Assembly (NCBI RefSeq): GCF_003123745.1
Contig: NZ_QETB01000003.1
Location: 62,001-126,000, forward strand
From: Ancrocorticia populi
GTDB taxonomy: Bacteria; Actinomycetota; Actinomycetes; Actinomycetales; Actinomycetaceae
Direction: 5' to 3'
DNA: 64,000 bases
Shown here: positions 1 to 15,682 of the stretch, piece after piece
Layout of the letters: every line of letters begins with the position of its first letter
Position numbering within the stretch: position 1 is the first letter of the stretch
Position numbers and translations under genes: made by a program
The notes under the pieces: model-generated
Databases searched by the model: none
What the model saw: the letters and a program-made list of their open reading frames with translations, nothing else
Told to the model about the DNA's origin: nothing

Positions 1-775
1 TGACCTGATTGGTTTCGTTCTGGCGTACCATGGCGCGAACGGCGAGCCAACCATCCTCATGAAGAGAGGAAACCGTTGGTGATTGCAGCCCCGGCGTGAT
101 CTTGGCTGCCTCATCAAGCACCTCGGAGCGGCAATCGTAATCCATCATCACGTACTGACGTGCTACGAGTACGCCCTCGAGGCGGCGGCTCAGCGTTGCC
201 AGGCCCTCGGGCTCCTGCCCGTCTTGACGGATGAGCACCGCCTCGGACCGCAGGATCGGTTCCTCGAACACTTCTAAGCCGGCAGCTCGTAGAGTTGTCC
301 CGGTTTCCACAACATCAGCAATCATGTCCGCTACCCCGAGCTGGACAGAAGATTCTACGGCACCATCAAGGTGCACGACGGTGGCAACGATTCCCTTACG
401 CTCCAGGTAGTGACGGACTAATCCGTCATACGCCGTAGCGATGCGCTTGCCCGATACATCGTCAAGGGTTTCACACGTGCCGATCGGGGCGGCGAACCGG
501 AAGGTTGAGCCAGCGAAACCAAGGGCACGGTGTTCCACGGCCACCGCTCCCGAATCGAGCAGAAGGTCGCGGCCGGTGATGCCAACGTCCACGGTTCCAG
601 ATCCCACGTACACCGCGATATCACGGGGCCGTAGGAAGAAGAACTCCACGTTGTTCGCCTCGTCGCGCAGCACCAGCTCTCGGCCGCCGCGGCGTTGGCG
701 GTACCCGGCCTCGCGGAGCATCTGTGAGGCGGGTTCAGACAGTGATCCCTTGTTGGGGACAGCAATACGAAGCAT
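1..775 (-). CDS. hisG: ATP phosphoribosyltransferase HisG (3' end cut by window edge)
   Basis: First enzyme of histidine synthesis; it joins ATP and PRPP to give phosphoribosyl-ATP in the cytoplasm. An open frame starts at the ATG at 775 and runs off the left edge with no stop, giving 258 residues here. The start [12 protein letters not shown], the [13 protein letters not shown] segment near residue 65, and the PRPP loop DVVETGTTL near residue 160 are typical. The length implies the long form with a C-terminal regulatory domain that binds histidine. It lies 7 bases after hisE, so the two are co-transcribed; hisE makes the next enzyme of the pathway. The last few residues are missing, and nothing suggests a broken gene. 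Confidence 0.95.
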
Positions 776-782
776 GGCGTTC

Positions 783-1058
783 CTAGAGGTAGCGGTAAAC
801 GTCTTTGAGGCTAAGGCCACGTGCGATGAGCATGACCTGAAGGTGGTAGAGGAGCTGGGAGGCTTCTTCGGCAAGGGCCTCATCGCTCTCATATTCGGAG
901 GCGATCCAGACTTCTCCGGCCTCCTCGACGATCTTCTTACCAATCGCGTGAACGCCGGCGTCTAGTTCCTCAACGGTCCCGGATCCCTCGGGCCGTTCGG
1001 CAGCCTTGCGGCTCAGTTCTTCAAACAGCTCATCAAATGTTTTCACTTGGCTAACCAT
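783..1058 (-). CDS. hisE: Phosphoribosyl-ATP pyrophosphatase HisE
   Basis: Hydrolyses phosphoribosyl-ATP to phosphoribosyl-AMP, the second step of histidine synthesis. The 91-residue product is the stand-alone HisE form. It shows the all-alpha MazG-like metal-binding pattern [12 protein letters not shown] followed by [14 protein letters not shown], whose Glu/Asp residues bind magnesium. It sits directly before hisG and 31 bases after the ribY stop, so it may be read through from the riboflavin importer operon; I see no separate promoter in the gap. In many actinobacteria hisE-hisG follow the riboflavin synthesis genes, which are absent here. Confidence 0.95.
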
Positions 1059-1089: not shown

Positions 1090-2118
1090 TCAAAGGTTGG
1101 CGCTGAGGTCAATGAACGCGTCATCTGCGGATACCTGAGTATCTAACAAGTCATTTTCCCACATAAATTCAGCCATTGCGTCCCAAGCCTCTACATCCTG
1201 CTCGCCAAACACACTTCCGCCGCTGTAGAGGGCAAGCGTCTGGTTTAGCGTGGTGGCAGCAACCTCACGGTTCTCCGGTTCCGCCAGATCAGGAACGTAG
1301 GATGCAGTAATATCAAGCGCCTCTTCGGGGTGGTCTTCGGCGAAGGTCACGCCCTTCTCGATGGCACCGAGGATCTTCACGTAATCGGCTTCGCGTGCAT
1401 CAAGATTCTCTTGGAGAGATCCCAACCCAACTCCTACTAGGGGAAGGCCTCCTTCGACAAGGCTGATGGTGCGCACGGGCCATTCCTCAGGCGAGGCGGC
1501 GGTATCGGCCCCAAGCGTTGCAGCAATACTCACAAGGTCCGAGTTAGAGAAGCCGATCACGGCATCCACGTCTCCAGATGACAGTGCGGCTGCCTGTGTG
1601 TACCCAACGTACTGGACATTCACGGAGGATTCGTCTATCCCGGACGCGTTAAACATCGCCAGTAGCCCAAAATAGTTCTCCCCATACGGACCCGGCAGGC
1701 CAACGGTCCCGCCTGCTAGATCCTCGGGGCTTTCGATATCCGAATCAGACGGCACGATAAGCTTGACCGGATATTGCTGATACATAGTTGCCCAGTTGAC
1801 GATATCTGTGCCCGCGGCCCGGCCCTGCATCATCTCGTCTCCCCCGGCGAAAACGATGTCCTCCTCCCCGGATTGGACTGCGCCAAGGAGAGACTCCTGT
1901 GATCCGTGGTGTCGGATCGTCACGTCAAGTCCGGCATCCTCAAAGTACCCCTCGTGTTCGGCCACATAGACGGGCGCGAACTGCACATTCGGAATGAAGG
2001 TCAGGCCCAACGTAATACTCGAAGAATCGGATGATCCAGTTGATCCGGATGAGCCCGATCCCGAGCATCCGGCCAGAAGAAGCGATACCGCTGCCAATCC
2101 AATTAGTATCTTTTTCAT
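1090..2118 (-). CDS. ribY: Riboflavin-type ABC substrate-binding lipoprotein (RibY-like, NMT1/THI5 fold)
   Basis: The 342-residue lipoprotein has a signal peptide ending LLLAGC, with the lipid-modified Cys at residue 18. A Gly/Ser linker follows, then an NMT1/THI5-type binding domain: LGLTFIPNVQFAPVYVAEHEGYF, GGDEMM, LPGPYGENYFGL. This fold binds pyrimidine or flavin-like ligands. Sequence alone would also fit ThiY (thiamine precursor), but the operon is led by an FMN riboswitch, so riboflavin is the better guess; the RibX/RibY pair has been described in that setting. The start ATG at 2118 overlaps the permease stop by 4 bases, and hisE follows. No ATPase gene is next to it. Confidence 0.8.
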   Translation of the reverse strand: MKKILIGLAAVSLLLAGCSGSGSSGSTGSSDSSSITLGLTFIPNVQFAPVYVAEHEGYFEDAGLDVTIRHHGSQESLLGAVQSGEEDIVFAGGDEMMQGRAAGTDIVNWATMYQQYPVKLIVPSDSDIESPEDLAGGTVGLPGPYGENYFGLLAMFNASGIDESSVNVQYVGYTQAAALSSGDVDAVIGFSNSDLVSIAATLGADTAASPEEWPVRTISLVEGGLPLVGVGLGSLQENLDAREADYVKILGAIEKGVTFAEDHPEEALDITASYVPDLAEPENREVAATTLNQTLALYSGGSVFGEQDVEAWDAMAEFMWENDLLDTQVSADDAFIDLSANL

Positions 2119-2909
2119 GATTCCTTCCTAGAATGTGAGAACACGCGGAAGCGGTGTTCTTTGATCTCACGGTTCACGCGCCACTCCACAAGCGAAATGA
2201 TGCCGTAGATGCTCATGGCGCTCGCCGCTAGGAGGACGATTGCGGCGAACATGCCGCGAATATCGCCAGCGCCTTGAGCGCTAATCAGGATCATGCCAAG
2301 CCCGTTTCCGCCTATGATCATCTCCCCCACCACGGCCCCTGTAATCGAGAGTGTGAATCCGGTACGCAAGCCGGCAAGGATGCCGGGCGCGGCCAGTGGA
2401 AGCTCCATCGTGCGAAACAACGTGAACCCTCCAGCGCCATCGAGTCGGGCGGCCCCGATGATGTCTTTATCAATATGCCGCACACCCACGGAGGTGGACA
2501 CCACCACTGGGAAGATCACCATGATCGTACACAGCACGACGATCGAGGAAAGCCCGTATCCGATCCAAATGGTCAACAGAGGGGCGATCGCCACCGCAGG
2601 GATCGCCTGCGAGGCGGCCACGTAGGGCTGAATGATCCTAGCAAACAGCTTAGATTTACCGATCGCGTACCCAAGCGGGATGCCCAGAACCGCCGCGAAG
2701 AAACAACCCAAAAGGGCCTCTTGGACCGTGATCCCTAGGGCGCTCGCGAGATAGCCCTGATTTAGGCCGGATATCAATCGCATGAGAGTGGATTGCGGGG
2801 TAGGCAGGAATTCTGAAGCGATCACGCCGAACGTTGTGAGCGCCCACCATAGGCATAGGAGAGCAATCCCGAATCCTACGGGTGGGAGCCATCTAAAGTG
2901 AGATCGCAA
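2115..2909 (-). CDS. ribX: Riboflavin-type ABC transporter permease (RibX-like)
   Basis: Inner-membrane permease of the BPD/ThiX family with about six membrane helices. The EAA loop, which docks the ATPase, is present as AARLDGAGGFTLFRTMELPLAAPGILAGLR. I place the start at TTG 2909 because a strong Shine-Dalgarno (GGAAAGAGG) lies 7 bases before it, giving 264 residues. A GTG at 2966 in the same frame would add 19 residues but has no Shine-Dalgarno and falls inside a leader hairpin. Translation is probably controlled by the FMN riboswitch, since this Shine-Dalgarno is one arm of a perfect hairpin. The partner ribY overlaps its 3' end. The ATPase is missing locally and may be shared from another operon. 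Confidence 0.82.
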   Translation of the reverse strand: MRSHFRWLPPVGFGIALLCLWWALTTFGVIASEFLPTPQSTLMRLISGLNQGYLASALGITVQEALLGCFFAAVLGIPLGYAIGKSKLFARIIQPYVAASQAIPAVAIAPLLTIWIGYGLSSIVVLCTIMVIFPVVVSTSVGVRHIDKDIIGAARLDGAGGFTLFRTMELPLAAPGILAGLRTGFTLSITGAVVGEMIIGGNGLGMILISAQGAGDIRGMFAAIVLLAASAMSIYGIISLVEWRVNREIKEHRFRVFSHSRKES

Positions 2910-2917
2910 TTCCGTTC

Positions 2918-2973
2918 CTCTTTCCTCATGCGGCGGGGAAAGAGACAGTTCGGCGCATGCAGACACGCCGAAC
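2918..2973 (-). promoter_or_regulatory. Expression platform: two hairpins, one hiding the ribX ribosome binding site
   Basis: Just after the riboswitch there are two perfect hairpins. The first pairs GTTCGGCG with CGCCGAAC (2973-2948, 10-base loop). The second pairs CTCTTTCC with GGAAAGAG (2944-2918, 11-base loop), and its second arm is the Shine-Dalgarno of the TTG start at 2909. Folding the second hairpin would block ribosome entry, which suggests translational control. The first, followed by a short U/C-rich run, could add some termination. Confidence 0.7.
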
Positions 2974-2980
2974 GTAGTGC

Positions 2981-3089
2981 GCCTCCCATCCGGACTTTAA
3001 CCGTCGGTAGGGGAATTTCACCTCTTCAACCACTTTCGTGGGTCGCGGACTATCACCGCCGGTTCAGACTTTCACTGACCCCGGAGCAC
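2981..3089 (-). ncRNA. FMN riboswitch (RFN element)
   Basis: Read on the minus strand, the conserved RFN blocks occur in order: GGGGTCAGTGAAAGTCTGA, ACCGGCGGTGATAGTCCGCGA, a short variable hairpin CCCACGAAAGTGG, GAGGTGAAATTCCCC, TACCGACGGTTAAAGTC, and the closing GGATGGGAG. Flanking GTGC and GCAC can close the P1 helix. It binds flavin mononucleotide and normally turns expression off when FMN is plentiful. It precedes ribX and is the main reason to call the transporter a riboflavin importer. Confidence 0.95.
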
Positions 3090-3104
3090 ATTGTGTTCGC
3101 AACA

Positions 3105-3133
3105 AGTATCGCCCTTTCACCATGCCTTTTCAA
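3105..3133 (-). promoter_or_regulatory. Promoter of the riboswitch-ribX-ribY transcript
   Basis: A -35 box TTGAAA (3133-3128) and a -10 box GATACT (3110-3105) are separated by exactly 17 bases. Transcription would start around 3098, a few bases before the riboswitch begins. Confidence 0.65.
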
Positions 3134-3219
3134 GTGTCGGTACCTTAGGCCCTGCATTAGCCCGTACGTGTCGCTATAGTATGAGCGTTGCAAACATCGT
3201 TAATTTAAGGGGCTTCCAC

Positions 3220-4260
3220 ATGCGTTCAACAACGCGCTGGTTACAGGTGTCGCTAACAATATTGGTGGGGTGTCTCGGCTTAGCCGGCTGTTCGAGCACC
3301 GCGGAAACTGCCGAGAGTTCAAGTCCGGCAACCTCTGCACCGGCGGCCACTGCGGATTTCCCGAGCGTCTCATCGGACTCGTTCCCGATCACGGTTACGG
3401 ACTGGACCGGGCACGAGGAAACGTTTGAGGAAGCACCTGAGAAGGTCGCGATCCTGTCCGGCACACCGCTCAATCTTTGGTACGACGTGTCTGGCACGGC
3501 AGTTGCCACCTCCAACCTCTCCGATAGCGTCCACGTCTCGGACGAACACGCTGAAGAAATTGAGGAACTGCCTCAGCTCGGCGAGCCTTTCAACGTGGAT
3601 GCCGAGAAACTTGTGGAACTGGATCCCGATCTAATCATCACCATGTACGGAATGCAGGACACGCTTACCTCCCAGCTCCAGGAACTAGGATTTGCCACGC
3701 TCACGGTGCGCACGAATGATCTGACTGACCTAGAGAACGTGTACGAGGTATTTGGCGCGCTCAACGGCACATCAGATGATGCCGCGGCGAAGATGGCGGA
3801 TATCCGGGAAAGCACCGATGCAGTCGCGGCGCAATGGCCAAGCGCTGATGAATCGGCGGTAATCCTGTTCCAGAGCGAGAAGGGCCTCTCGGTGAAGCTG
3901 GACAATTCAATCGCGGGTGCAATGCTCACCGAACTGGGCGTCACGAACATCGCCTCGGGCTTGCCTCGCCAGGGATCCGATTCGGCCACCTTGGATCTAG
4001 AGGAAGTAGTTAAGCAACAGCCCGATTACGTGCTCGTGACCGGACGTTTCTCCGATCCATCGCGGGCGAAGGAGATTATGGAGGGCGAATTCGCTAAGAA
4101 TGAGGCGTGGCAGAGCGTGGACGCCGTCACCGAAGGTCGCGTCACTTACCTCCCACAGGAGTACTTCCTCTATAACGCTGGTCCGGATTACCCCGCCGCC
4201 TTCGAATACCTCGCTGCTTCGCTCCATCCGGATGTCTACGGCGAGCCCGTCGCTCCCTGA
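3220..4260 (+). CDS. Iron/siderophore-type ABC transporter substrate-binding lipoprotein
   Basis: Class III (FecB/BtuF/TroA-like) binding lipoprotein of 346 residues that captures a metal chelate outside the membrane. The signal peptide ends in the lipobox LAGC with Cys 24, followed by a Ser/Thr/Ala linker. The domain has the usual two lobes joined by one long helix: PEKVAILSG, LVELDPDLIITMYG, and VKQQPDYVLVTGRF late. I chose the ATG at 3220 because AAGGGG lies 7 bases upstream and the signal peptide begins there; upstream in-frame ATGs would put a charged stretch before it. It is the first gene of a three-gene operon with a permease and an ATPase. The ligand (siderophore, haem or cobalamin) cannot be read from sequence; no cobalamin riboswitch is present. 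Confidence 0.9.
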   Translation: MRSTTRWLQVSLTILVGCLGLAGCSSTAETAESSSPATSAPAATADFPSVSSDSFPITVTDWTGHEETFEEAPEKVAILSGTPLNLWYDVSGTAVATSNLSDSVHVSDEHAEEIEELPQLGEPFNVDAEKLVELDPDLIITMYGMQDTLTSQLQELGFATLTVRTNDLTDLENVYEVFGALNGTSDDAAAKMADIRESTDAVAAQWPSADESAVILFQSEKGLSVKLDNSIAGAMLTELGVTNIASGLPRQGSDSATLDLEEVVKQQPDYVLVTGRFSDPSRAKEIMEGEFAKNEAWQSVDAVTEGRVTYLPQEYFLYNAGPDYPAAFEYLAASLHPDVYGEPVAP

Positions 4261-5231
4261 TGCACACACGGCGCTATACGGCGATAGTCTTTACCATCTT
4301 GGTGGTGTTGCTCCTCGGGTCGGTTCTGTTCGGGATAGGCTCAGGCTCAGTCTCGCTCTCTCCTACTCAGGTGATTGATGGCTTGTTCGGAGGCGCAGAG
4401 CAGCGGGTGGTCTGGGACCTGAGGTTGCCGCGAGTGATCCTCGGTGGGCTTGTGGGAATGTCGCTCGCAGTATCGGGCCTGATCCTGCAAGCCGTCATGA
4501 TGAACCCTTTGGCGGATCCCGGGATTATCGGTATCTCCTCCGGAGCCGGCCTGTTCGGCATTGTCATTCTCCTCGCCTTCCCCGCGCTCTACACCTCCGT
4601 ACCTATTTTCGCCTTTTGTGGCGCAATGCTGGCCGCAATCGTGATCTACGCGCTCGCGTGGCGCGGTGGAATCCAACCCATGCGAGTAATCCTCGCGGGC
4701 GTGGCCGTTTCGGCGTTGTGCGGAGCAGGCATCTCCGCCGTCATGGTTTTCTTCTCCGATCGGGTACAGGGTGCCCTCCTGTTCATGAATGGAAGCCTCT
4801 CGATGCGCGGTTGGAGCGAGGTTCGCCTCCTCTTGCCCTACGCCCTAATCGGCGTGCTTGCCGCCCTCGTATGTTCCCGACGCCTGAATCTTATTGTTTT
4901 GGGCGACGACGTCGCACGATCCATGGGCATGAACGTTCAAGCGAACCGGCTCTTTCTCACCGCAATCGCGGCGATGCTCGCTGCTGGCGCTGTGTCTACT
5001 GTTGGCCTCCTCGGATTCGTGGGGCTGATTGTTCCCCACCTTGTAAGGCTCATCCTCGGTAACAACCACACACTGCTGGTGCCGGCAACGGCACTTTGTG
5101 GGGCCGGACTGGTCATCTTCTCGGATACCATCGCGCGCACTCTCTTTAGTCCCACCGAGATTCCGGTGGGTATCTGCATGGCGATCCTTGGAGTACCCTT
5201 CTTCCTTTATTTCCTGCGGAAGGCGATGTAA
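4260..5231 (+). CDS. FecCD-family ABC transporter permease
   Basis: A 323-residue membrane protein of the FecCD/BtuC family. It forms a homodimeric channel of about ten helices per subunit for iron chelates or cobalamin. Family hallmarks are DLRLPRVILGGLVGMSLAVSGLILQ near residue 50 and the late block GLLGFVGLIVPHLVRLILGNNH, which touches the ATPase. The ATG overlaps the binding-protein stop by one base (TGATG), and the next gene overlaps its own stop in the same way, so all three are translationally coupled. A single permease gene means the channel is a homodimer. Confidence 0.95.
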   Translation: MHTRRYTAIVFTILVVLLLGSVLFGIGSGSVSLSPTQVIDGLFGGAEQRVVWDLRLPRVILGGLVGMSLAVSGLILQAVMMNPLADPGIIGISSGAGLFGIVILLAFPALYTSVPIFAFCGAMLAAIVIYALAWRGGIQPMRVILAGVAVSALCGAGISAVMVFFSDRVQGALLFMNGSLSMRGWSEVRLLLPYALIGVLAALVCSRRLNLIVLGDDVARSMGMNVQANRLFLTAIAAMLAAGAVSTVGLLGFVGLIVPHLVRLILGNNHTLLVPATALCGAGLVIFSDTIARTLFSPTEIPVGICMAILGVPFFLYFLRKAM

Positions 5232-5995
5232 TGCTCCAGGCACGCGATATCCGCTTGACACTCGGAAGACGGGAAATCCTGCACGGAGTGAGTGCGGACT
5301 TTGAGACTGGCCGAATCCACGCCATTCTCGGGCCGAATGGCTGCGGGAAAACCACACTGATCCGGGCCCTCACCGGCGCGTCAAAGCCCGATTCAGGCGA
5401 AGTCAAGCTAGACGGAATGCCTGTTGTCAGGATGCGCCCACGCGATATCGCACGAAAGATTGCGGTGTTGTGGCAGGCCAGCCCTGCCCCCGAGGGAATC
5501 ACGGTGGCCCGGTTGGTCTCCTACGGCCGCTATTCTTACGCCACGTGGCGCGGCATGAACCTTGCCCCTGTTGACGATGCTCTTGAGAAGGCGGGCGTGG
5601 CGCATCTGGCGGATCGTCGGGTTTCCACTCTATCGGGCGGCGAACGCCAACGCGTCTGGTTGGCAACCGCCCTTGCACAGGAGCCTGAGATCCTCATCTT
5701 GGATGAGCCAACCACATATCTGGATATCGCTCATCAGAGCGATATCTTGGACTTGGTTCGTACCCTGAACGCGCAAGGCGGACTCACAGTCATCATGGTT
5801 CTGCACGATTTGACGCAAGCTGCCCGTTACGCCCACAAGTGTCTGGTTATGCGAGAGGGCCTGATCCAACGGGTGGGACCGCCGGATCAGGCCCTCTCAC
5901 GTCAAGCGATTGCTGAGGACTTCAGTGTGGATGCGTGGATCACCAGAGACCCGTCAACCGGTGCCCCAGTGATCGCTCCGCGAGGCCGCGCCTAG
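5231..5995 (+). CDS. FecE-family ABC transporter ATP-binding protein
   Basis: A 254-residue ATPase powering the FecCD-type permease upstream. It shows Walker A GPNGCGKTT near residue 37, signature LSGGERQR, Walker B ILILDEPTTYLD and the switch His in VLHDL. The order and spacing match iron-chelate ATPases (FecE/FhuC). Its TAG stop overlaps the stop of the convergent aldo/keto reductase through a shared CTAG, so there is no room for a terminator between them. Confidence 0.95.
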   Translation: MLQARDIRLTLGRREILHGVSADFETGRIHAILGPNGCGKTTLIRALTGASKPDSGEVKLDGMPVVRMRPRDIARKIAVLWQASPAPEGITVARLVSYGRYSYATWRGMNLAPVDDALEKAGVAHLADRRVSTLSGGERQRVWLATALAQEPEILILDEPTTYLDIAHQSDILDLVRTLNAQGGLTVIMVLHDLTQAARYAHKCLVMREGLIQRVGPPDQALSRQAIAEDFSVDAWITRDPSTGAPVIAPRGRA

Positions 5996-6813
5996 AACTC
6001 TTCGTATACGGCAGGGTCCTGATCGTTGATACGCCCATCGGGTCGGCCGAGTGCCGTGATAGCCTCTATCTCCGCGGGCTCTAGCGTGAGGTCCAGTGAG
6101 GCGAGATTCTCGGCCTGGCGCTCAGGTGAAAATGCCTTCGGAATGGCTAGAACGTCGCGGGCAGTGTGCCAAGCGAGAACAACTTGCCCGGGAGTCGCAT
6201 CGTGCGCGGAAGCGATCTTGGTGATTACTGGATCCTGAAGCAGATCGCCGCGGCGAAGTGGGCTCCACGCCTCAGTGATAATCCCGTTGGCGTGACCGTA
6301 GGCGAGCTGTTCTACCTGAGGAAGGTACGGGTGGAGCTCGACTTGGTTCACCTCGGGAACCACGCCGGTTTCCTTCTTCAGCTCCTCCAGGTGCTCAGGC
6401 AGGAAGTTACAGACGCCGATGTGACGGATAAGCCCGCGCTCCTTGGCATCGATCATCGCCTGCCACGCCTCCACGTACTTCCCAACACGTGGATTCGGCC
6501 AATGAATGAGGTATAGGTCTAGGTAGTCAAAGCCGGTGCGGTACAGGGACTCCTCGATCGTTACCGTCGCATCGTCATAAGCCTGATGGCGCCCCGGAAG
6601 CTTCGAGGTGTAAATGATGTTCTCGCGCGCGGCCCCGGAGCGGCGAACGCCCTCGGCCACCGTAGCCTCGTTTTCATAGTTGAAGGCCGAATCGAGCAGG
6701 GTATATCCACGATCAATCGCGGCAGCCACCGAATCGGCGCCCTCGTTTCCCTTGAGCTTGTAAGTTCCAAACCCAATTGTTGGAAGTTGAAGGCCATCGT
6801 GAGCAATGTGCAT
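5992..6813 (-). CDS. Aldo/keto reductase
   Basis: NADPH-dependent reductase of the 2,5-diketo-D-gluconate reductase type, about 273 residues in a TIM barrel. The signatures GFGTYKLKG, LLDSAFNYENE, IHWPNP and IGVCNFLPEHL are clear. The usual catalytic tetrad Asp-Tyr-Lys-His can be placed: Asp and Tyr in the LLDSAFNYENE block, Lys in TSKLPG, His in LYLIHWP. The ATG at 6813 has AGGAG 5 bases upstream, so I prefer it to the GTG five codons earlier. It is last in the APC-DDAH-PutP set, 26 bases after PutP. The substrate is not evident; a role in detoxifying or using an aldehyde from amino-acid breakdown is only a guess. Confidence 0.92.
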   Translation of the reverse strand: MHIAHDGLQLPTIGFGTYKLKGNEGADSVAAAIDRGYTLLDSAFNYENEATVAEGVRRSGAARENIIYTSKLPGRHQAYDDATVTIEESLYRTGFDYLDLYLIHWPNPRVGKYVEAWQAMIDAKERGLIRHIGVCNFLPEHLEELKKETGVVPEVNQVELHPYLPQVEQLAYGHANGIITEAWSPLRRGDLLQDPVITKIASAHDATPGQVVLAWHTARDVLAIPKAFSPERQAENLASLDLTLEPAEIEAITALGRPDGRINDQDPAVYEEF

Positions 6814-6839
6814 TGTCTCTCCTTCCACGGTTCTCGAGT

Positions 6840-8330
6840 TTACTTGAATGAGGCAACCATGTCCTTGCTGGCAGAGAACTCGGTATCGATTTCCGCATTC
6901 GGCTTATAGGTGGCCAGGCTGACGGCGATCGCCACGACTAGGTGGACAACAAAGGCGGGAAGTAGCTCGTACAGCGGCGTATCCAGTGCGGACCATACGA
7001 ACACGGTCACCGCGCCGGAGATCATGCCTGCTAGCGCCCCGGGAACAGTGAGCTTCCGCCAGTAGAGGCTGAGCAGGATAACCGGACCGAATGAGGCACC
7101 GAAGCCTGCCCACGCGAAGCTCACCAGCCCGAGAATCGTATCGTTTGGGTTGATCGCCATCGCCATGGCGATCAGTGCAACAACCAGCACGGCAGAGCGG
7201 CCAAGCAGTACGAGGGTCCGTTCAGACGGTGGAGTCTTCTTCATGACGCGATACAGATCTTCAACCAACGCCGAGGAACACACGATCAGCTGGCTCGAGA
7301 ATGTACTCATGATCGCAGCGAGCACCGCCGCCAGCACTAAGCCTGCGATAAACGGATGGAGAAGAATAGTGGACATACGCAGAATCACGGTTTCTGAGTT
7401 TGCCAGTTCCTCCCCGCGTTGAGCGAAGAATGCGATACCGATTAGGCCGGAAAGCACCGCGCCGCCGAGCGAGATAAACTGCCAGGTGATCCCGATGCGC
7501 CGAGCGCTCTTCGCCTCACCGGAATTCCTCAACGCCATGAACCGCACAACGATATGAGGCTGGCCAAAGTACCCAAATCCCCATGATAGACCCGAAATGA
7601 TAATGAATGCTGCTGCTCCACCGGTGAACTGCCCTGAGCCGATCAAGGAGAGATTACCGGGCTGGAGTTCCTGAACCTCAGTGGCGGTCTCGCCAACACC
7701 ACCCACGGCCAAAACCGCGGCAATCGGCACCACCATGAGCGCAATCACCAGCATGAGCCCCTGCGCCACGTCAGTGAAAGATGCCCCGAGAAACCCACCA
7801 AACAACGTATAAATGAGGGTCACCGCCACAACTAGAAGCATGCCCCACATGTAGTCCATTCCAAAGGATTCCTCGAAGAACACGCCTCCAGCAACCATCC
7901 CAGAGGACACATAGATTGTGAAGAACACGAGGACTATAACGGCGGAAACGATCCGAAGCGCGTGAGACTTGTCCTTCAGCCTGTTCTCAAAGTAGCTAGG
8001 CACAGTGATGGAGTTGTTTGATACCTCCGTGTAGGCACGCAATCGTGGCGCAACGATCCTCCAGTTGAGGTAAGCACCAAGCAAAAGCCCGATCGCGATC
8101 CAGCCTTCAATGAGCCCCGTAGCATAGATGGCGCCAGGCAGGCCCATGATTAGCCATCCGGACATATCGGACGCGCCAGCACTGAGTGCGGCAACCCACG
8201 GAGGGAGGTCGCGCCCACCCAACATATAATCCTCGTGATCCTCCGTTCGTTTGAAGGCACGGTATCCAATCAGCAATAGGCCGGCGAAGTAAATGAAGAG
8301 GGCTAGATACAGGTAGATCTGATCGGGCAT
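6840..8330 (-). CDS. putP: Sodium/proline symporter (PutP family, SSS transporter)
   Basis: Membrane transporter of the sodium:solute symporter family, about 496 residues and 12-13 helices. PutP hallmarks: LGGRDLPPWVAALSAGASDMSGWLIMGLPGA near the N-terminus, a glycine-rich GLSWGFGYFGQPHIVVRFMA in the middle, and ILMSTFSSQL-type IMSTFSSQLIVCSSAL later. I start it at the ATG at 8330, 14 bases after the DDAH stop; the longer frame to 8378 would overlap DDAH and add an unlikely hydrophilic tail. Proline is the best family prediction, but the position after a dimethylarginine-type hydrolase leaves open a related amino acid. Confidence 0.92.
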   Translation of the reverse strand: MPDQIYLYLALFIYFAGLLLIGYRAFKRTEDHEDYMLGGRDLPPWVAALSAGASDMSGWLIMGLPGAIYATGLIEGWIAIGLLLGAYLNWRIVAPRLRAYTEVSNNSITVPSYFENRLKDKSHALRIVSAVIVLVFFTIYVSSGMVAGGVFFEESFGMDYMWGMLLVVAVTLIYTLFGGFLGASFTDVAQGLMLVIALMVVPIAAVLAVGGVGETATEVQELQPGNLSLIGSGQFTGGAAAFIIISGLSWGFGYFGQPHIVVRFMALRNSGEAKSARRIGITWQFISLGGAVLSGLIGIAFFAQRGEELANSETVILRMSTILLHPFIAGLVLAAVLAAIMSTFSSQLIVCSSALVEDLYRVMKKTPPSERTLVLLGRSAVLVVALIAMAMAINPNDTILGLVSFAWAGFGASFGPVILLSLYWRKLTVPGALAGMISGAVTVFVWSALDTPLYELLPAFVVHLVVAIAVSLATYKPNAEIDTEFSASKDMVASFK

Positions 8331-8344
8331 ATCTGGTGGTGTCC

Positions 8345-9115
8345 TTACGCTAGGTCCCGAATTCGGACGGAAAGGCACGTAACGCAGCCTTCCAGCTTCT
8401 CGAACTCGGTGATCGGAACAGTGGTGACAGTGTAACCGAGGCTTTCAAGAAGTGCAGTAGTTTCGGGAGCGGAAGCAGACATCAGTACATGGGTCTCAGA
8501 TAGGCATACCACGGCGGTGCCATGCGGCTCAGGGACAGGAATGAAGCGATCGAAGATGCTCGGGTTATCCACAAAGTCCGGGTATCCGATAACAGTTCCG
8601 TCGGGAAGCGCCGTTACCGCCGTTTTCAGATGCAAGGCCTTTGTAACCGGCACGCCCACCACCTTCGCGCCCAAAGGAGTCAGGATGGCGCGGAGCTGCC
8701 GGATACCCTCACCGTTGGTTCGCCCGCCACGCCCAACATACACGGTGTTCCCCACTTTGAGAATGTCGCCGCCATCAAGGGTGCCCGGTGCCTGGATCTG
8801 GTTGAGAGAGCAGCCAAGTTGGCCAGCTACTTCGCGTGTGCTGGCTACTTCGCCGCGCCGGATCTCCGCCCCTGGATAAGACGATACGGCAACGTTCTTG
8901 AACATCACCACGGAATCCTCGATGAACACACCGTCGGGACACTCATCCACTGACGCCACCTGGCGGGTTTCCCACCCGGCCTCATGCAGGGCTTTCACGT
9001 AACCTTCCCATTGAGACAACGCGAGTGGAACGTCAACGGGTACGCGTTCGATGTGGTCCACAATCCCATCGTTCAGGTTAGGGCTAGGCTTGCGGACGAG
9101 TGCAATCTTTGACAT
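8345..9115 (-). CDS. Dimethylarginine dimethylaminohydrolase (DDAH)-like enzyme
   Basis: Guanidino-modifying enzyme of 256 residues that would release (di)methylamine from N-methylated arginine to give citrulline. DDAH marks are visible: GVFIEDSVVMF, TLDGGDILKVG, a catalytic His in ALHLKTAV, and a C-terminal nucleophile Cys in GCVTCLSVRI. It is shorter than arginine deiminases and lacks their extra helical domain. The ATG at 9115 has AGGA 5 bases upstream. It lies 13 bases after a cationic amino-acid type permease and 14 bases before PutP, so uptake and hydrolysis of an arginine derivative look coupled. No ornithine transcarbamylase or carbamate kinase is nearby. Plain arginine as substrate cannot be excluded. 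Confidence 0.88.
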   Translation of the reverse strand: MSKIALVRKPSPNLNDGIVDHIERVPVDVPLALSQWEGYVKALHEAGWETRQVASVDECPDGVFIEDSVVMFKNVAVSSYPGAEIRRGEVASTREVAGQLGCSLNQIQAPGTLDGGDILKVGNTVYVGRGGRTNGEGIRQLRAILTPLGAKVVGVPVTKALHLKTAVTALPDGTVIGYPDFVDNPSIFDRFIPVPEPHGTAVVCLSETHVLMSASAPETTALLESLGYTVTTVPITEFEKLEGCVTCLSVRIRDLA

Positions 9116-9128
9116 TTCTTTCCTATTC

Positions 9129-10604
9129 TTAAACTTGGTCACCAGTGAGGTTTTCGGCTTGCGCCTGTAATCGCGCCAATTCGGAGTGTTTCCTGCTCCA
9201 CAGGAAATAGAAGACCAAGGCCACGCTAATCCACCCAACAAAGGCCTGAAGGGTAAGTGCGTGGAGGCCGGAGATCACGTAGATGCAGGCAGCCACGGAC
9301 AGGATCGGTGTTACCGGGTAACCCGGCACTCTGAAGCCACGGTGCATGTCCGGAGCCGTGCGGCGCAGCACCATCACGCCAATTGACACTAGTGCGAAGG
9401 CGCTGAGTGTGCCGATACTCGTCAAGTCCGCCAAGATGCCTAGGGGCAACAGGCCCGCCAAAATTGCCACAGCCCCAGAGACTATAAACGTATTGACGAG
9501 TGGGATCGAACGCTTGGGTGAAACCTTCGCGAACACCGGCGGGACAAGTCCGTCGCGACCCATTGAGTAGAGAATACGCGTTTGGCCGTACATGCAGATT
9601 AGCGTGACGGAGAAGATGGAGATCACGGCGCCAACAGCGAGGAGCGTTCCGGGCCATGTGGATCCCACAACGCCCTGAACGATTGTAGCCAAACTTGCCT
9701 TCTGTCCCTCGAAATCCTCCGCTGATTGAGCACCCAGTGCAGCAAATGCCACCACAACGTACACCAGCGTTACGATGCCGAGTGCCAGGATCAGCGCGCG
9801 TGGAATAGTCTTCTTCGGATCCTTAACCTCATCACCGGTGGTTGCCACTGCGTCTAAACCGATAAACGAGAAGAATAGTGAACCGGCCGCGATAGAGATG
9901 CCGTGCATGCCTTCGGGAGCGAAGTTGGCGAAATGATCAGCGTTGAAGCCAGTTAGCGCAATGGCAGCAAAGACCCCGAGAACCCCTATCTTGATGAAGA
10001 CCATGATGGCATTTGCTCGTGCTGATTCCGATGCGCCCCGCAAAAGCAGGAGCATGCACAACACAACCAGGATGACGGCTGGCAGGTTGATAATGCCCCC
10101 GGCATCGGGCGCTGCGGAAAGGGCATCCGGAAATTGGATTCCGAAAAGATTGTTCAATAAGAGATTTAGGTACTCGGACCACCCCACGGCCACCGCGGCC
10201 GCAGACACGCCATACTCCAGTATCAGGCAGGCACCTACCGCAAAAGCGGCAAGTTCCCCCATAGTTGCGTATGTATACGAGTAGGAAGAGCCAGATGACG
10301 GGATTGTTGAAGCCAACTCCGCATAACACAGCACCGTGAGCCCGGCCACCGCAGCCGCGATAAGGAACGAAACCAAGACACCGGGCCCAGCCTCAGGCAC
10401 CGCCTCGGAGAGAATGAAGAAGATTCCGGTCCCAACCGTGCCGCCTACGCCTATCATCGTGAGCTGCATGGTGGACATGGACCGCTTGAGCGAATGTGTA
10501 TCGTCCCGCTCCACTTCCATCTGGTGAATGGAGTCCGGGCATCCTTCCGTGGTAACACCAGCCGGCATACGCCTCCGGGTGAGTTGGCTGCCTAGTCCGC
10601 CCAT
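9129..10604 (-). CDS. APC-family amino acid permease (cationic amino acid transporter type)
   Basis: A 491-residue transporter with about 12 helices and a hydrophilic N-terminal tail of some 45 residues. The APC signature SMSTMQLTMIGVGGTVGTGIFFI marks helix 1 with its unwound GxGxG substrate site. FFSFIGLDAVATTGDEVKDPKKTIPRA is the conserved loop of the YfnA/CAT subgroup, which favours arginine, lysine or ornithine-like substrates. The ATG at 10604 has AGGAG 6 bases upstream. It is the first gene of the APC-DDAH-PutP-AKR operon and follows two ArgR-like direct repeats that probably control it. Confidence 0.92.
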   Translation of the reverse strand: MGGLGSQLTRRRMPAGVTTEGCPDSIHQMEVERDDTHSLKRSMSTMQLTMIGVGGTVGTGIFFILSEAVPEAGPGVLVSFLIAAAVAGLTVLCYAELASTIPSSGSSYSYTYATMGELAAFAVGACLILEYGVSAAAVAVGWSEYLNLLLNNLFGIQFPDALSAAPDAGGIINLPAVILVVLCMLLLLRGASESARANAIMVFIKIGVLGVFAAIALTGFNADHFANFAPEGMHGISIAAGSLFFSFIGLDAVATTGDEVKDPKKTIPRALILALGIVTLVYVVVAFAALGAQSAEDFEGQKASLATIVQGVVGSTWPGTLLAVGAVISIFSVTLICMYGQTRILYSMGRDGLVPPVFAKVSPKRSIPLVNTFIVSGAVAILAGLLPLGILADLTSIGTLSAFALVSIGVMVLRRTAPDMHRGFRVPGYPVTPILSVAACIYVISGLHALTLQAFVGWISVALVFYFLWSRKHSELARLQAQAENLTGDQV

Positions 10605-10629
10605 AAGGAGCTCCTTGTCCGATGCGTAC

Positions 10630-10662
10630 TAACTATGCACAATACTCAATAATTATGCACTG
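10630..10662. promoter_or_regulatory. Two direct repeats before the APC-DDAH operon, candidate ArgR sites
   Basis: TAACTATGCAC (10630-10640) and TAATTATGCAC (10650-10660) match at 10 of 11 positions and start exactly 20 bases apart, i.e. two helical turns on the same DNA face. The TATGCA/TGCATA core resembles actinobacterial ARG box half-sites. They lie 26-56 bases before the permease ATG, overlapping where its promoter must be. Confidence 0.5.
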
Positions 10663-10707
10663 AATGTCGCTAGCAGAATGATCCGTTCACCTGATGGACG
10701 GCCCCGC

Positions 10708-11586
10708 TTACACTTCCTCAGGAGTTGCCCCCAACCCTTCGTCCTCGCGGTCCACATACTTCTCAACTGTCTCCTCCACAGCAAGTGAACCCGCATAGTC
10801 CGGCACCTCTTGCTGCAGGCTGCGCGACGTCCGCTGATAACCGGTGGACTTGGGCCTTTTCGGGAACTTCAGCTCGGGCCGCTCGATATGCTCGTAGGGA
10901 ATCTGAGAGAGCAGATGATGAATCATATTGATACGCGCCTTGCGCTTGTCCTCGGATTCCACCACGTGCCACGGTGCCTCGTGGATGTCCGTGTGCACAA
11001 ACATCTCGTCTTTAGCGCGCGAATAATCCTCCCACCTAGTGATTGACTCAAGATCCGTGGGTGAGAGCTTCCAGCGCCGCATGGGATCGGTGAGCCGCGA
11101 CTTGAAGCGCTTGAGCTGCTCCTTATCGGACACAGAGAACCAATACTTCAGGAGAATAATTCCATCTTCTACCAGCATCCGTTCGAAGATCGGCGCCTGT
11201 GCCAAGAACCTACGATGCTCTTCGGGCGTGCAGTAGCCCATCACGCGCTCTACTCCCCCACGGTTGTACCACGAGCGGTCAAAGAGCCGGATCTCGCCAG
11301 CCGCCGGAAGATGCTCGACGTACTTCTGGAAGTACCACTGCGTTCGCTGCCGCTCTGTCGGCGCTGGCAGAGCAACCACGCGCGCGATACGGGGATTGAG
11401 GTACTCGGTGATCCGCTTAATGGCGCCGCCCTTACCGGCCGCATCACGCCCTTCGAAAATCACGACCACCCGCGCGCCTGTGGCTTTCACCCATTCCTGC
11501 ATCTCTACGAGTTCAGCTTGGAGCCGCTGAAGTTCGGCTTCGTAGAGATCCTTGTTCATCTTTGGAGTCTTCTTTTTCTTCGCCAT
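10708..11586 (-). CDS. ppk2: Polyphosphate kinase 2 (PPK2)
   Basis: Transfers phosphate between polyphosphate and nucleotides; most enzymes of this group make GTP or ATP from polyphosphate. The 292-residue, single-domain length fits a one-domain PPK2. Walker A is VIFEGRDAAGKGGAIKR near residue 45, Walker B is RLFDRSWYNRGGVERVMG near residue 100, and the lid region follows. Lysine-rich N-terminus MAKKKKTPK and acidic C-terminus are usual. It stands alone, with no polyP-forming ppk1 nearby. The ribosome binding site is weak. Exact nucleotide preference cannot be read from sequence. Confidence 0.95.
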   Translation of the reverse strand: MAKKKKTPKMNKDLYEAELQRLQAELVEMQEWVKATGARVVVIFEGRDAAGKGGAIKRITEYLNPRIARVVALPAPTERQRTQWYFQKYVEHLPAAGEIRLFDRSWYNRGGVERVMGYCTPEEHRRFLAQAPIFERMLVEDGIILLKYWFSVSDKEQLKRFKSRLTDPMRRWKLSPTDLESITRWEDYSRAKDEMFVHTDIHEAPWHVVESEDKRKARINMIHHLLSQIPYEHIERPELKFPKRPKSTGYQRTSRSLQQEVPDYAGSLAVEETVEKYVDREDEGLGATPEEV

Positions 11587-11646
11587 GGGCCCAGACTAGC
11601 GGAGAAGTGTGAAGTGGGCCACGAGTTTTTTTGAACGACGACGACC

Positions 11647-11883
11647 CTACTGCCCTCGGTGCCGCCTTATGAACTCCTTGCATCGATCCAATTGACGGAA
11701 GCCCCATTCCTTCACGCGGGCAGCACCTTCGAACTCAGTCGCGAGGATGGCGAAACCGCCCAACACGATGAGCGTGCCGGGACCCGGTAAGGGCATGAGG
11801 ATTACGCCAAGTACCACGACTCCGCCGCCGATCAACCCAATAACCAGGCGCCGCGAATTCTTCCATATGATTGCCACGCTCAT
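11647..11883 (-). CDS. Small PGPGW-family membrane protein
   Basis: A 78-residue protein of the PGPGW family (formerly TIGR02611), whose function is unknown. It has two hydrophobic helices around LVIGLIGGGVVVLGVILMPLPGPGTLIVLGGFAILATEF, with the PLPGPGT turn between them that defines the family, then a basic amphipathic tail (KEWGFRQLDRCKEFIRRH). It is a likely inner-membrane hairpin with its tail in the cytoplasm. It lies 58 bases after the S41 peptidase stop and 60 before PPK2. Confidence 0.85.
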   Translation of the reverse strand: MSVAIIWKNSRRLVIGLIGGGVVVLGVILMPLPGPGTLIVLGGFAILATEFEGAARVKEWGFRQLDRCKEFIRRHRGQ

Positions 11884-11933
11884 GAGAATAGAACGGTCGC
11901 TTGCATCTTGGAAGGGTTTTCAGGGATGAATCA

Positions 11934-11954
11934 GGGTCTTTTCAGGGGCAGCCC
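11934..11954. repeat. 21-bp direct repeat, left copy
   Basis: GGGTCTTTTCAGGGG, then C, then AGCCC. It recurs with one difference at 13703-13723. Here it overlaps the last codons and stop of the S41 peptidase gene. The two copies bracket the peptidase and the toxin-antitoxin genes. A looser related string (AGGGTTTTCAGGG) lies about 20 bases further left. Confidence 0.75.
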
Positions 11955-12922
11955 TCGTCAGACAGCCACTCGACAGCGACGTCAAACGTCAGACTTGGGC
12001 TCGAAGCGACATCCGGCTCCAGTGGTACCCCTTCGGTATTGTTTCCTGAACGGTCAGCATACGTGGCTTCTGTTAAGACGATTTGTGCGCCGTCCGCAAG
12101 TGTATAAACAGAATTCGCTGAACTATATCCCGCACTGGCTTCACCAAAGGTTCTTACCTTTGGCAGGTCCTTGAACGCGAGCAGCACGGCTTCGCCGCTA
12201 GATGCAGTGTCCTTATCTTGTAACACAGCAATGGGGGTGTCGATAACCTTCTTGACGTCGGGGCCCTCCGAGAGAACCTCACCGTTCAAGGCCGTTGCCG
12301 CACCGTCGATTGCCACTGAGGAGGACTGACCGTCCGACGTCACAAACGCCATGGCAGGGCCGTTCGGTAACAACGGAGAAACGGCGGCAAGCATAGGCCA
12401 CATATTCCCGCCACGGTTACCACGCAGATCCACAACCCAACCACAGGTCTGTGCAGAGGCATTATCGATACCAAATGCGGCCTCATTCACGTACGCTGTT
12501 TCTTCCTCTGCCGACGCCGAGGAAATCATCGGTATTGAAACTACCGTGACCCCGGTATTGGTGGTCACCTTCGGAAGCTCGAAGCGTTCGGCACTCTGGT
12601 TTTGAAACTCGAGAGCTTTCTCTGGTGTCTGAAACGACGAGTGCTTGCCACCTGCAACTCTAGTGGCCTCTATGAGAGGTACATAGAGTTCTTCGATAGA
12701 TTCTGCTTCTGAAACGGAATCGAGGACATTGGCTTTGGCATTATCCCAGTCCTCACCTTGTGCATAGTATCCGTTTGCGAGAATAGCTAACGCATCCTCA
12801 GCATAATCCGAGGGAGAGGATGGCCTATGCGATATCCACAAAGAGCCCAATCCGGCAAACACCAGCAGTAGTAGGAGTGCCACAACAGTGTTCGCCTTAG
12901 CCCGACAGATACGCTTGCCCAT
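11942..12922 (-). CDS. S41-family serine peptidase, membrane-anchored
   Basis: Secreted or membrane-bound peptidase of about 326 residues. One N-terminal helix (VVALLLLLVFAGLGSLWI) anchors it outside. The C-terminal S41 core has WVVDLRGNRGGNMWPML and the nucleophile block DTASSGEAVLLAFKDLP, followed by GEASAGYSSAN. The latter replaces the GKG lysine of CtpA, as in the subgroup of S41 enzymes with GEPTAGYSSAN. There is no PDZ domain. The ATG at 12922 has GGGAGG 5 bases before it. Base composition looks lower in GC than flanking genes, and the segment is bracketed by 21-bp repeats, which suggests acquisition. Substrate unknown. Confidence 0.85.
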   Translation of the reverse strand: MGKRICRAKANTVVALLLLLVFAGLGSLWISHRPSSPSDYAEDALAILANGYYAQGEDWDNAKANVLDSVSEAESIEELYVPLIEATRVAGGKHSSFQTPEKALEFQNQSAERFELPKVTTNTGVTVVSIPMISSASAEEETAYVNEAAFGIDNASAQTCGWVVDLRGNRGGNMWPMLAAVSPLLPNGPAMAFVTSDGQSSSVAIDGAATALNGEVLSEGPDVKKVIDTPIAVLQDKDTASSGEAVLLAFKDLPKVRTFGEASAGYSSANSVYTLADGAQIVLTEATYADRSGNNTEGVPLEPDVASSPSLTFDVAVEWLSDEGCP

Positions 12923-12975
12923 TGGTGCCTCCCAACGCTGCAGTAGCCAACTTCCGGCCTTCAATAGCCAAACTC

Positions 12976-13000
12976 TTTACAGAAGCCTCAAATCTGTAAA
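12976..13000. promoter_or_regulatory. Inverted repeat upstream of the S41 peptidase gene
   Basis: TTTACAGA (12976-12983) and TCTGTAAA (12993-13000) form perfect 8-base arms around a 9-base spacer, 54 bases before the peptidase start. This could be an operator or a small RNA hairpin in the leader. The rest of the 156-base gap to the toxin gene holds no gene that I can see. Confidence 0.4.
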
Positions 13001-13120
13001 CACCTTAGAACGGAAACGAGACACCCATCTGGTTGAATCGCTGCCTTCTAGTCAGGTTTCGACCCGGTCGCGCCAATAGCTAGGCCGCCGCCGCTGGTGC
13101 GCATAAGCCAAGATAAAGAT

Positions 13121-13372
13121 TCAGGAATCATGCTCGATCGAGTAAACAACCCGGTACGGGTAGCCGCGAACGTTCTTACTGCGGATGACGGTTCCATCTT
13201 CGCCGATCATTAACGACGGTGCAGCACTTGGCCACTGTGAAATGCTCTTACGCGCTTCAGCGGTACGATCGATGAATCTAAGGCCGACACCAGATTCTTG
13301 TTCCTCGTACCAACCAACGGCGGCATCGAACTCAGCAACCGCCTCAGGATGCTCGCGCTGTGACGGCTTCAT
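13121..13372 (-). CDS. RelE/ParE-family toxin
   Basis: An 83-residue toxin of the RelE/ParE superfamily. It opens with the amphipathic helix typical of ParE (EAVAEFDAAVGWYEEQESGVGLRFIDRT) and ends with the conserved strand pair KNVRGYPYRVVYSIE. ParE members poison gyrase, RelE members cut mRNA; sequence does not decide which. Its ATG overlaps the antitoxin stop by 4 bases, the normal antitoxin-first order. The pair sits between two 21-bp direct repeats together with a peptidase gene. Confidence 0.88.
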   Translation of the reverse strand: MKPSQREHPEAVAEFDAAVGWYEEQESGVGLRFIDRTAEARKSISQWPSAAPSLMIGEDGTVIRSKNVRGYPYRVVYSIEHDS

Positions 13373-13605
13373 GTGCCGAGAGAAGCCCGAAGACGAGCAA
13401 AGTGCTCATCCGCATCAATAAGTTCAACCGTTCCTGAGCGCAGCTCATCGAGTCGCTTGGCGACTTCGATGCGCCATGTATCATCAACGCCATCAGCGTT
13501 ACCGGAATCGTGGATGCTTGCAAGTAAGGTGTTCGCGACAAGCGCGCGTTGGTCAACATCCAGTGCGAGAGCCTCGCGAATCAGTGTTGCAGTATCCGGT
13601 TCCAT
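13369..13605 (-). CDS. Antitoxin of the addiction-module CHP02574 family
   Basis: A 78-residue acidic protein that should neutralise the toxin encoded next to it. It matches the CHP02574 antitoxin pattern: an N-terminal helix with ALALDVDQRALVANTLLASI, then D..W..E..KRLDELRSG and a C-terminal segment LIDADEHFARLRAS that wraps the toxin. There is no clear DNA-binding domain, so autoregulation is uncertain. The ribosome binding site is weak. It is the first gene of the TA pair; the 89 bases before it hold no other gene. Confidence 0.88.
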   Translation of the reverse strand: MEPDTATLIREALALDVDQRALVANTLLASIHDSGNADGVDDTWRIEVAKRLDELRSGTVELIDADEHFARLRASLGT

Positions 13606-13694
13606 ATCCGAATTCTACCTGAGCTAAGGCGATACTTACAGAATCGAGCGTCTAGGAGATAAGCTTTGGGCAACATGGACACGCCGAATAGCGG

Positions 13695-14912: not shown

Positions 14913-14946
14913 TTCTCTATGCTCTCAAATGGACTCCCCGCAAGGA

Positions 14947-15004: not shown

Positions 15005-15022
15005 TACCGATGTGAGCTTCGA

Positions 15023-15682
15023 CTACAAGTGAGCATCGGCGAGGCGGCGTAGCTCAGCAATTTCGGCCACAGCGTCCTCCGCCTTGAATACGGCGGAACC
15101 AGCTACGAAGTTGTTGGCTCCTGCCTCCGCGGCGCGCTCGATGGTTTCACGAGAGACTCCACCATCCACCTGAATCCACAGGTCTAGGCCCGCATCCTCG
15201 ATCGCCTTCCGAGTGCGCTGAATCTTCGGCAGCGTGAGGTCAAGGAACTTCTGGCCCCCGAATCCTGGCTCCACGGTCATGACAAGGATCTGATCAAATT
15301 CGGGCAGGAGATCAATGTAGGGTTCAATCGGCGTGCCCGGACGCAGCGCGAGGCTGGCGCGTACTCCCATGGCGTGAAGCTCGCGGGCCAGCTTCACCGG
15401 GGCCATCGCGGCCTCGGCGTGGAACGTGACCGATGCGAATCCGAGTTCTGCGTATGCGGGCGCCCAGCGATCCGGCTGCTCAATCATAAGGTGTGCGTCG
15501 CACGGGACGGATGAGTTGGCAACTGCTGCCTCGGCGATGGGCAGGCCAAGGGCGAGATTCGGGACAAAGTGATTGTCCATGATGTCAATGTGGGCGTAAT
15601 CCGCGGTCGCGATCTTGTCCATTTCGTCAGCGAGATGGCCAAAATCGCAGTTGAGGATCGAGGGCGAAATCAGTGCAGTCAT
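15023..15682 (-). CDS. rpe: Ribulose-phosphate 3-epimerase
   Basis: Interconverts ribulose 5-phosphate and xylulose 5-phosphate in the pentose phosphate pathway. The 219-residue TIM barrel shows [16 protein letters not shown], the metal-site block [35 protein letters not shown] and QVDGGVS. All metal ligands (two His, two Asp) are present. Its ATG overlaps the rsmB stop by 4 bases. It ends the priA-fmt-rsmB-rpe operon and is followed by a strong terminator. In many actinobacteria ribD and other riboflavin genes follow rpe; here they do not. Confidence 0.98.

Follow-up and report, generated by a model that had tools for sequence, protein, structure and literature searches.

The ribXY locus of Ancrocorticia populi

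We analysed a 64,000-nucleotide stretch of Ancrocorticia populi DNA, positions 62,001 to 126,000 of contig NZ_QETB01000003.1 (G000:C3:62001-126000; hereafter the window), in which a flavin mononucleotide (FMN) riboswitch is followed by ribX and ribY, encoding the permease and the substrate-binding lipoprotein of a RibXY-type importer, and then by the histidine genes hisE and hisG (Table 1). The window genome (G000) comprises 2.65 Mb in 8 contigs and its completeness is rated 100%. Together with 36 relatives it forms a family sample of 37 Actinomycetaceae genomes, mostly one per genus and including one that is only 79% complete (G035); 22 order-level relatives outside the family were also compared. 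An earlier note, made from the sequence alone, had described a complete FMN riboswitch before a RibX/RibY-type importer and hisE-hisG. Our searches agree with this description, as the riboswitch matches RF00050 over its full length and the genes match the corresponding families. The span given in that note, 2115-3133, takes in the riboswitch and ribX but leaves out ribY, which is part of the unit. We consider it very likely that the locus encodes a riboflavin importer of the RibXY type under FMN riboswitch control, probably at the level of translation, in a bacterium unable to make riboflavin, and that ribXY took the slot between rpe and hisE before the synthesis genes were lost from another locus.

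Table 1. Features of the ribXY locus in the window. Positions are counted from the first letter of the window.
Feature	Position	Strand	Details
FMN riboswitch aptamer (RFN element)	2974..3092	-	RF00050, full model 1-138; score 90.1 bits (gathering score 66.2), E 2.7e-19
Candidate sigma-70-like promoter, just upstream of aptamer	3105..3133	-	TTGAAA-17-GATACT, 9/12; one such match, shuffles having 0.3 on average; weak
11-bp hairpin, directly after aptamer, part of expression platform	2948..2973	-	Putative anti-sequestor or weak intrinsic terminator (terminator-like tail TGTCTCTTTC)
Candidate Shine-Dalgarno (SD) sequestor hairpin	2918..2944	-	8-bp perfect stem; 3' arm holds SD-like purine stretch before TTG 2909
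ribX, riboflavin ABC-type permease	2115..2909	-	264 aa from TTG 2909; longer open reading frame from GTG 2966 (2966-2115); BPD_transp_1 PF00528, E 1.9e-28
ribY, substrate-binding lipoprotein, NMT1/THI5-like fold	1090..2118	-	PF09084, E 6.5e-37; pLDDT 90.2; best fold match 3ix1
hisE, phosphoribosyl-ATP pyrophosphohydrolase	783..1058	-	NCBIfam equivalog, 152 bits; starts 31 bases after ribY
hisG (5' part)	1..776	-	Runs off window; read from L112
rpe, upstream anchor of slot	15023..15682	-	PF00834, E 3.4e-66

The window unit has the make-up of the published RibXY transporter: a BPD_transp_1 permease adjoins an NMT1-type binding protein, an FMN riboswitch lies directly upstream, and no ATPase gene is present, ribY being followed by hisE. 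The two genes overlap by 4 bases, and an LLAGC lipobox can be read in RibY. In the literature, cited here by PubMed Central (PMC) number, a COG0600-type permease and a COG0715-type binding protein are likewise described behind an FMN riboswitch (PMC3766115; PMC4418817) and without an ATPase gene (PMC3766115), a ribZ ATPase gene being mentioned for a few Chloroflexi (PMC4418817). Such units are reported in Actinobacteria with and without the synthesis pathway (PMC4418817), in prototrophs and auxotrophs alike (PMC6593275). An Escherichia coli riboflavin auxotroph was rescued by the RibXY of Chloroflexus aurantiacus, whose RibY is said to bind flavins (PMC4418817). Transport has been demonstrated for this homologue only (PMC4418817), and the window RibXY is predicted to transport riboflavin. 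The window RibY differs from the Chloroflexota-type homologues, to which it is 27-33% identical, and the window pair sits in the rpe-hisE slot. The nearest named loci by RibY all belong to Actinomycetaceae: the isolate RGIG7097, Actinomyces sp., Ancrocorticia, Actinotignum, Actinobaculum, Trueperella and Arcanobacterium. TTG 2909 is the likely start of ribX, rather than GTG 2966, because of the purine-rich stretch ahead of it and the N-termini of relatives.

Riboflavin synthesis in the window genome

Family models of RibH, RibB, RibE and RibA, run over all contigs, found no match in the window genome; the same models matched RibH and RibB in all 14 control genomes, RibE in 11 and RibA in 10. 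With a full-length RibD query, the sole match was to a 154-aa frame (34% over 121 residues), apparently another sort of deaminase. As the whole-genome search was empty, the window holds no riboflavin synthesis gene although it contains both rpe and hisE, as the earlier note had pointed out, and no rib operon was found elsewhere in the genome. RibF is kept, at C5:170837. The RibU family was not found in the window genome, and RibU was dropped as a second importer here; the search did not extend to RibM/PnuC-type importers. Since ribA, ribB, ribD, ribE and ribH are all missing from a genome rated as 100% complete, while ribF is kept and an importer lies under an FMN riboswitch, the sequence data make dependence of this organism on outside riboflavin a well-supported prediction.

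Distribution in Actinomycetaceae

The FMN-ribXY arrangement is ordinary for Actinomycetaceae, as it is common throughout the family. Slot-type RibY (E < 1e-38) was found in 31 of the 37 genomes, and G035 shows a riboswitch, with the end of ribX lying at a contig edge. An FMN aptamer lies upstream of ribX in 32 of the 37, and an FMN riboswitch occurs in all except G006. RibH is present in 10 genomes and was not found in 27 (26 of the 36 relatives and the window genome); RibB and RibE matched in exactly the same ten, and RibA in those ten and in G007, lying away from the rib operon in G008 and G013. All 27 genomes without RibH keep FMN-ribX, 26 of them with RibY, and the five genomes with neither slot-type RibY nor the cut ribX all have RibH, so that none of the 37 was without both systems. 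Five genomes (G003, G008, G013, G021 and G028) combine ribXY with a separate rib operon that has its own FMN riboswitch, and another five (G006, G011, G026, G027 and G033) have rib genes only. We therefore predict that most of the sampled Actinomycetaceae genera depend on environmental riboflavin through one RNA-regulated importer. Outside the family, 15 of 30 ribXY loci were scanned for FMN riboswitches, in batches of 8 and 7, and all 15 (from Propionibacteriaceae, Chloroflexota and one metagenome-assembled genome labelled as a cyanobacterium) have one upstream of ribXY.

Some of these genomes show further peculiarities. Six importer-only genomes (G018, G022, G023, G025, G029 and G030) also carry a strong RibU-family gene, and their single FMN riboswitch precedes ribXY; two riboflavin importers may thus coexist in them. 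In G006, no ribXY, RibF or FMN riboswitch was found, and its rib genes, which diverge strongly and lie on a contig of 6.6 kb (L158), may have been regained by transfer or may be contamination. In the rib operon of G028 (L143), no RibE was seen between RibD and RibBA; RibE is on another contig (G028:C2:921-1493).

The rpe-hisE slot

Surroundings were compared over 20 kb, with aptamers missed by the motif scan placed from a separate riboswitch search, six of them being confirmed. The usual order in the family is priA-fmt-rsmB-rpe-[FMN]-ribX-ribY-hisE-hisG. Among the 31 ribXY genomes, 19 are flanked by rpe and hisEG on both sides, including the window genome, where rpe lies about 12 kb from the riboswitch, and eight have rpe with no hisEG match in the examined stretch. 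In G021, hisEG adjoins ribXY and rpe lies about 9 kb upstream, just outside that stretch; G013 has hisEG with rpe far away, and G003 and G019 are rearranged. In G006, G011, G027 and G033, hisE follows rpe by 23 to 134 bases and ribXY is therefore cleanly absent, while G026 has no hisE behind rpe within the examined flank.

According to the earlier note, many actinobacteria have the order rpe, riboflavin synthesis genes, hisE, hisG. This order is real in 8 of the 22 order-level relatives outside the family (G039, G040, G044, G050, G052, G056, G057 and G058), but the usual occupant of the slot within the family is [FMN]-ribXY. The rpe-[FMN]-ribDEBAH-hisE-hisG locus of these related families has the same flanking genes as the window and, in six of the eight, an FMN aptamer in place behind rpe (G044 and G056 gave none, even when the threshold was loosened); synthesis genes stand behind the riboswitch there, where the window has an importer instead. 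In G047 and G049, rib-hisE-hisG lies on contigs that end before rpe. Other occupants were seen as well: G046 has rpe, the riboswitch, a PnuC/RibM-type gene (PF04973), hisE and hisG, and G048 has rpe-[FMN]-ribX at the end of the examined stretch, both with the rib operon elsewhere. In G037 and G055, gaps of 51 and 78 bases separate rpe from the hisE behind it and the rib genes lie elsewhere, and in G038 and G054 an FMN riboswitch lies just before RibU-type genes.

None of the titles and abstract openings listed from the open-licence literature on RibXY, on RibY and Chloroflexus, on riboflavin in Actinomycetaceae, on the family genera (20 of 489 entries), on hisE, hisG and rpe with riboflavin, and on the RFN element describes this slot, a search of limited reach and thus weak evidence of novelty; a term search of the main text of two Actinomycetaceae genomics papers found no mention of riboflavin. 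The importer type itself is already published, and what may be new here is the history of swaps in the slot and the question of the ATPase partner.

Order of events

Our species tree, built by a quick method from five concatenated proteins of 50 genomes, has 23 weak branches among 47 inner ones. On this tree, the presence of rib genes needs at least nine changes and that of ribXY within the family at least three, counts that give no direction. The outgroup is not set apart from the family by any single branch: two genomes assigned to other families, G043 and G048, group with five family rows, which makes G048 weak as an outgroup. A single clade of the family rib proteins was rejected by the approximately unbiased (AU) test for nine rows (p-AU 0.0003) and not rejected for the seven left without G003 and G028 (p-AU 0.144); G006, whose rib genes form a very long branch, was left out of these tests. 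On the simplest reading, transfer restored synthesis in G003, G028 and perhaps G006, and G008, G013 and G021 kept their rib genes beside ribXY.

In a tree of 71 aptamers, aligned over about 130 columns and unresolved at its deep branches, the window aptamer belongs to a clade of nine ribXY aptamers of relatives that includes the one of G028 (support 98/96) and stands apart from the rib aptamer of G028. The two aptamers of one genome are 72% identical in G028 and 66% in G003, against 80-88% in G008, G013 and G021. A single clade of all ribXY aptamers was rejected (p-AU 0.015 with Chloroflexota, 0.007 without), whereas one of the order aptamers was not (p-AU 0.256, and 0.611 without two transferred-looking ones); the groups for the order clade and for ribXY without Chloroflexota were named after the first aptamer tree had been seen. 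The riboswitch thus tends to follow the organism and not the gene, and retention of the riboswitch through a change of the genes behind it is mildly favoured. A clade of the family ribXY aptamers with the slot rib aptamers was also rejected (p-AU 0.004), in a grouping that omits the non-slot rib aptamers and is therefore not a fair test of retention. We did not use the aptamer tree as an arbiter of riboswitch history: it places the window among ribXY aptamers of its own clade and cannot alone settle retention against co-transfer. In the RibXY protein tree, again by a quick method, a single clade of the order rows had p-AU 0.054, and the Propionibacteriaceae rows L031 and L037 fall inside them, which makes transfer of ribXY between families likely, though not firm.

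The most likely order is that ribXY took the slot first and that synthesis disappeared afterwards, from another locus, since the five dual genomes of the family, three of them with rib genes compatible with vertical descent, and G048 hold [FMN]-ribX together with rib genes elsewhere. In the window lineage, ribXY would have entered between rpe and hisE while synthesis was still present, the rib operon then lying elsewhere, to be lost afterwards. We also put forward, tentatively and as something short of probable, a wider scenario for the order. The rpe-hisE interval would be a swap site with a fixed riboswitch and exchangeable cargo (the rib operon, ribM, ribXY or nothing), in which the arrival of the importer would have made synthesis dispensable; repeated loss of rib genes would have followed, with regain by transfer in two or three lineages, and RibXY would be driven by a shared ATPase encoded elsewhere. 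Importer-only, synthesis-only and dual genomes form a set in which one can ask whether the gain of an importer precedes the loss of a vitamin pathway, as well as which ATPase powers an ABC-type (ATP-binding cassette) importer without its own, and the history of the slot is worth one comparative study.

Predicted control by the FMN riboswitch

Within the window, nothing but the aptamer matched Rfam at gathering score, and no other FMN riboswitch was found anywhere in the genome. It is assigned to RF00050 because the match exceeds the gathering score over the full model; FMN binding and a change in expression are predicted. Nothing about the aptamer itself is unusual, and what the window leader adds is the candidate platform for sequestering the SD sequence. 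Two hairpins form in the leader past the aptamer, a fold whose stability was equalled by 3 of 200 shuffles (z -2.37). Folding of the whole leader is not out of the ordinary (z -0.75; 39 of 200 shuffles). None of 100 dinucleotide shuffles contained a hairpin as long as the putative sequestor at 2944-2918, by a criterion set after the leaders were read. Of 32 family leaders, 23 contain a hairpin with a purine-rich 3' arm, likewise a post hoc criterion (on average, a fraction of 0.16 of the shuffles had one as long), as do 3 of 7 Propionibacteriaceae leaders; we relied on this test for the window hairpin only. A CCCC motif is present in 24 of the 32 family leaders, against 12.6 expected.

Control of ribX is likely to be exerted at translation. 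When FMN is scarce, the ribosome-binding site of ribX would be exposed in the leader, allowing both proteins to be made. RibY, tethered as a lipoprotein, would capture riboflavin and RibX would carry it inward, for conversion by RibF to FMN and flavin adenine dinucleotide. With plentiful FMN, the aptamer would close and the 2944-2918 hairpin would hide the ribosome-binding site. The downstream genes hisE and hisG probably share the ribXY transcript, but if control is translational their expression need not follow FMN.

Energy supply

As the unit encodes no ATPase, either an ATPase encoded elsewhere must drive RibXY or the transporter works without one. A single ATPase query over the ribXY loci gave a nearby match in L125 and L137, within a second NMT1-type system. 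The window genome has an SsuB/TauB-like ATPase at C1:364569, 57% identical to the G021 query, beside a second NMT1-type binding protein (G000:C1:363932-365351). Among 30 ATPase loci from five genomes (two of them without a frame), the members of one group, 376-428 residues long between stops, share 63-77% identity across all five; its length suggests that this group may be a sugar-type shared ATPase. No partner was assigned to RibXY.

Alternative explanations

Several observations weigh against our interpretation. No ATPase is encoded with ribXY, and among the matches listed the SsuB/TauB-like ATPase reaches at most 43% identity in the other four of the five genomes searched. In the first SD-pairing test, ribXY leaders could not be told apart from shuffled controls: of 39 leaders kept after L182 was dropped for its short leader, 38 were counted, G005 having no usable SD, and only four beat 95 of 100 shuffles. 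SD pairing in the window leader was itself matched by 21 of 100 shuffles. The hairpin at 2973-2948 scored as terminator-like (one hit, with an average of 0.5 in shuffles), so that transcriptional control is possible. Auxotrophy and riboflavin transport in this organism are predictions from sequence. Finally, the solved structures nearest to RibY bind thiamine or its precursor and not flavin. The model of RibY is confident (predicted local distance difference test, pLDDT, 90.2), and its closest folds are the pyrimidine-binding 3ix1 and the thiamin-bound 4nmy. RibY shares fold and family with 3ix1, the ThiY of the ThiXYZ pyrimidine importer (E 4e-17; template modelling score 0.72 by query and 0.81 by target), which would suit import of a thiamine precursor or another NMT1-type ligand, the FMN riboswitch being misread or incidental. 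We regard such a ligand as very improbable. RibY is only 25% identical to 3ix1 and has another first-strand motif: T40, Q46 and F47 are invariant in 28 of 28 homologue rows, where 3ix1 and 4nmy have D, V/N and H, and the D-W..P-N..H motif of these two structures, itself only a candidate for ligand binding, does not occur in RibY. The 90-bit aptamer is of the FMN and not the thiamine pyrophosphate type and, as described above, recurs before ribX across the family and at every outside locus scanned; no thiamine-type riboswitch or adjoining ATPase gene was seen beside ribXY, and transport by a homologue is published (PMC4418817). The flavin reading of the earlier note, in preference to a thiamine precursor, is thereby upheld on indirect grounds.

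Two further alternatives concern the synthesis genes. They might be present and have escaped detection in gaps of an assembly of 8 contigs or as divergent enzymes, and divergent or replaced riboflavin enzymes do exist in other lineages. Given that four family models and the RibD query all miss in a genome rated complete, that the models match in 10 to 14 of the 14 control genomes, and that 26 of the 36 family relatives also lack RibH, we attach next to no probability to this. The other alternative is a one-step history, as proposed in the earlier note: the slot would have held the rib operon, its genes would have gone when synthesis was lost, and the left-over riboswitch would have come to control the importer. 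The eight order-level relatives with rib genes in the slot, six of them with an aptamer, fit this history, as do the rejection of a ribXY aptamer clade but not of an order clade and the regained look of the rib genes in two or three dual or rib-carrying genomes. We nevertheless judge it unlikely, because the five dual genomes hold [FMN]-ribXY beside a separate rib operon with its own riboswitch (the rib genes of G008, G013 and G021 being compatible with vertical descent), because G048 has rpe-[FMN]-ribX with its rib genes elsewhere, and because the window aptamer groups with ribXY aptamers, including that of G028, and not with the rib aptamer of G028. Riboflavin dependence, the other half of that proposal, remains the best reading, with entry of ribXY into the slot before the loss of synthesis.

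Neighbouring genes

The hisG genes of relatives, where found, are 59-79% identical to the L112 copy. At eight loci (L118, L119, L120, L122, L123, L134, L136 and L140), rpe-[FMN]-ribXY is kept with no adjoining hisE or hisG; loss of histidine synthesis in Actinomycetaceae is mentioned in the abstract of PMC5404923. Many relatives have rpe no further than about 1 kb from the riboswitch, and an SSF-like match lies between the two in G017, G007 and L014. The roughly 12 kb between riboswitch and rpe in the window (3134-15022) hold unrelated genes: an iron importer, an aldo-keto reductase, an SSF symporter, an ADI-like protein, an amino acid permease, PPK2, an S41 peptidase and an MFS protein. The importer, at 3220-5995 on the plus strand and divergent from the riboswitch, is a three-gene ABC system of the iron or haem type (Peripla_BP_2, FecCD and an ATPase).

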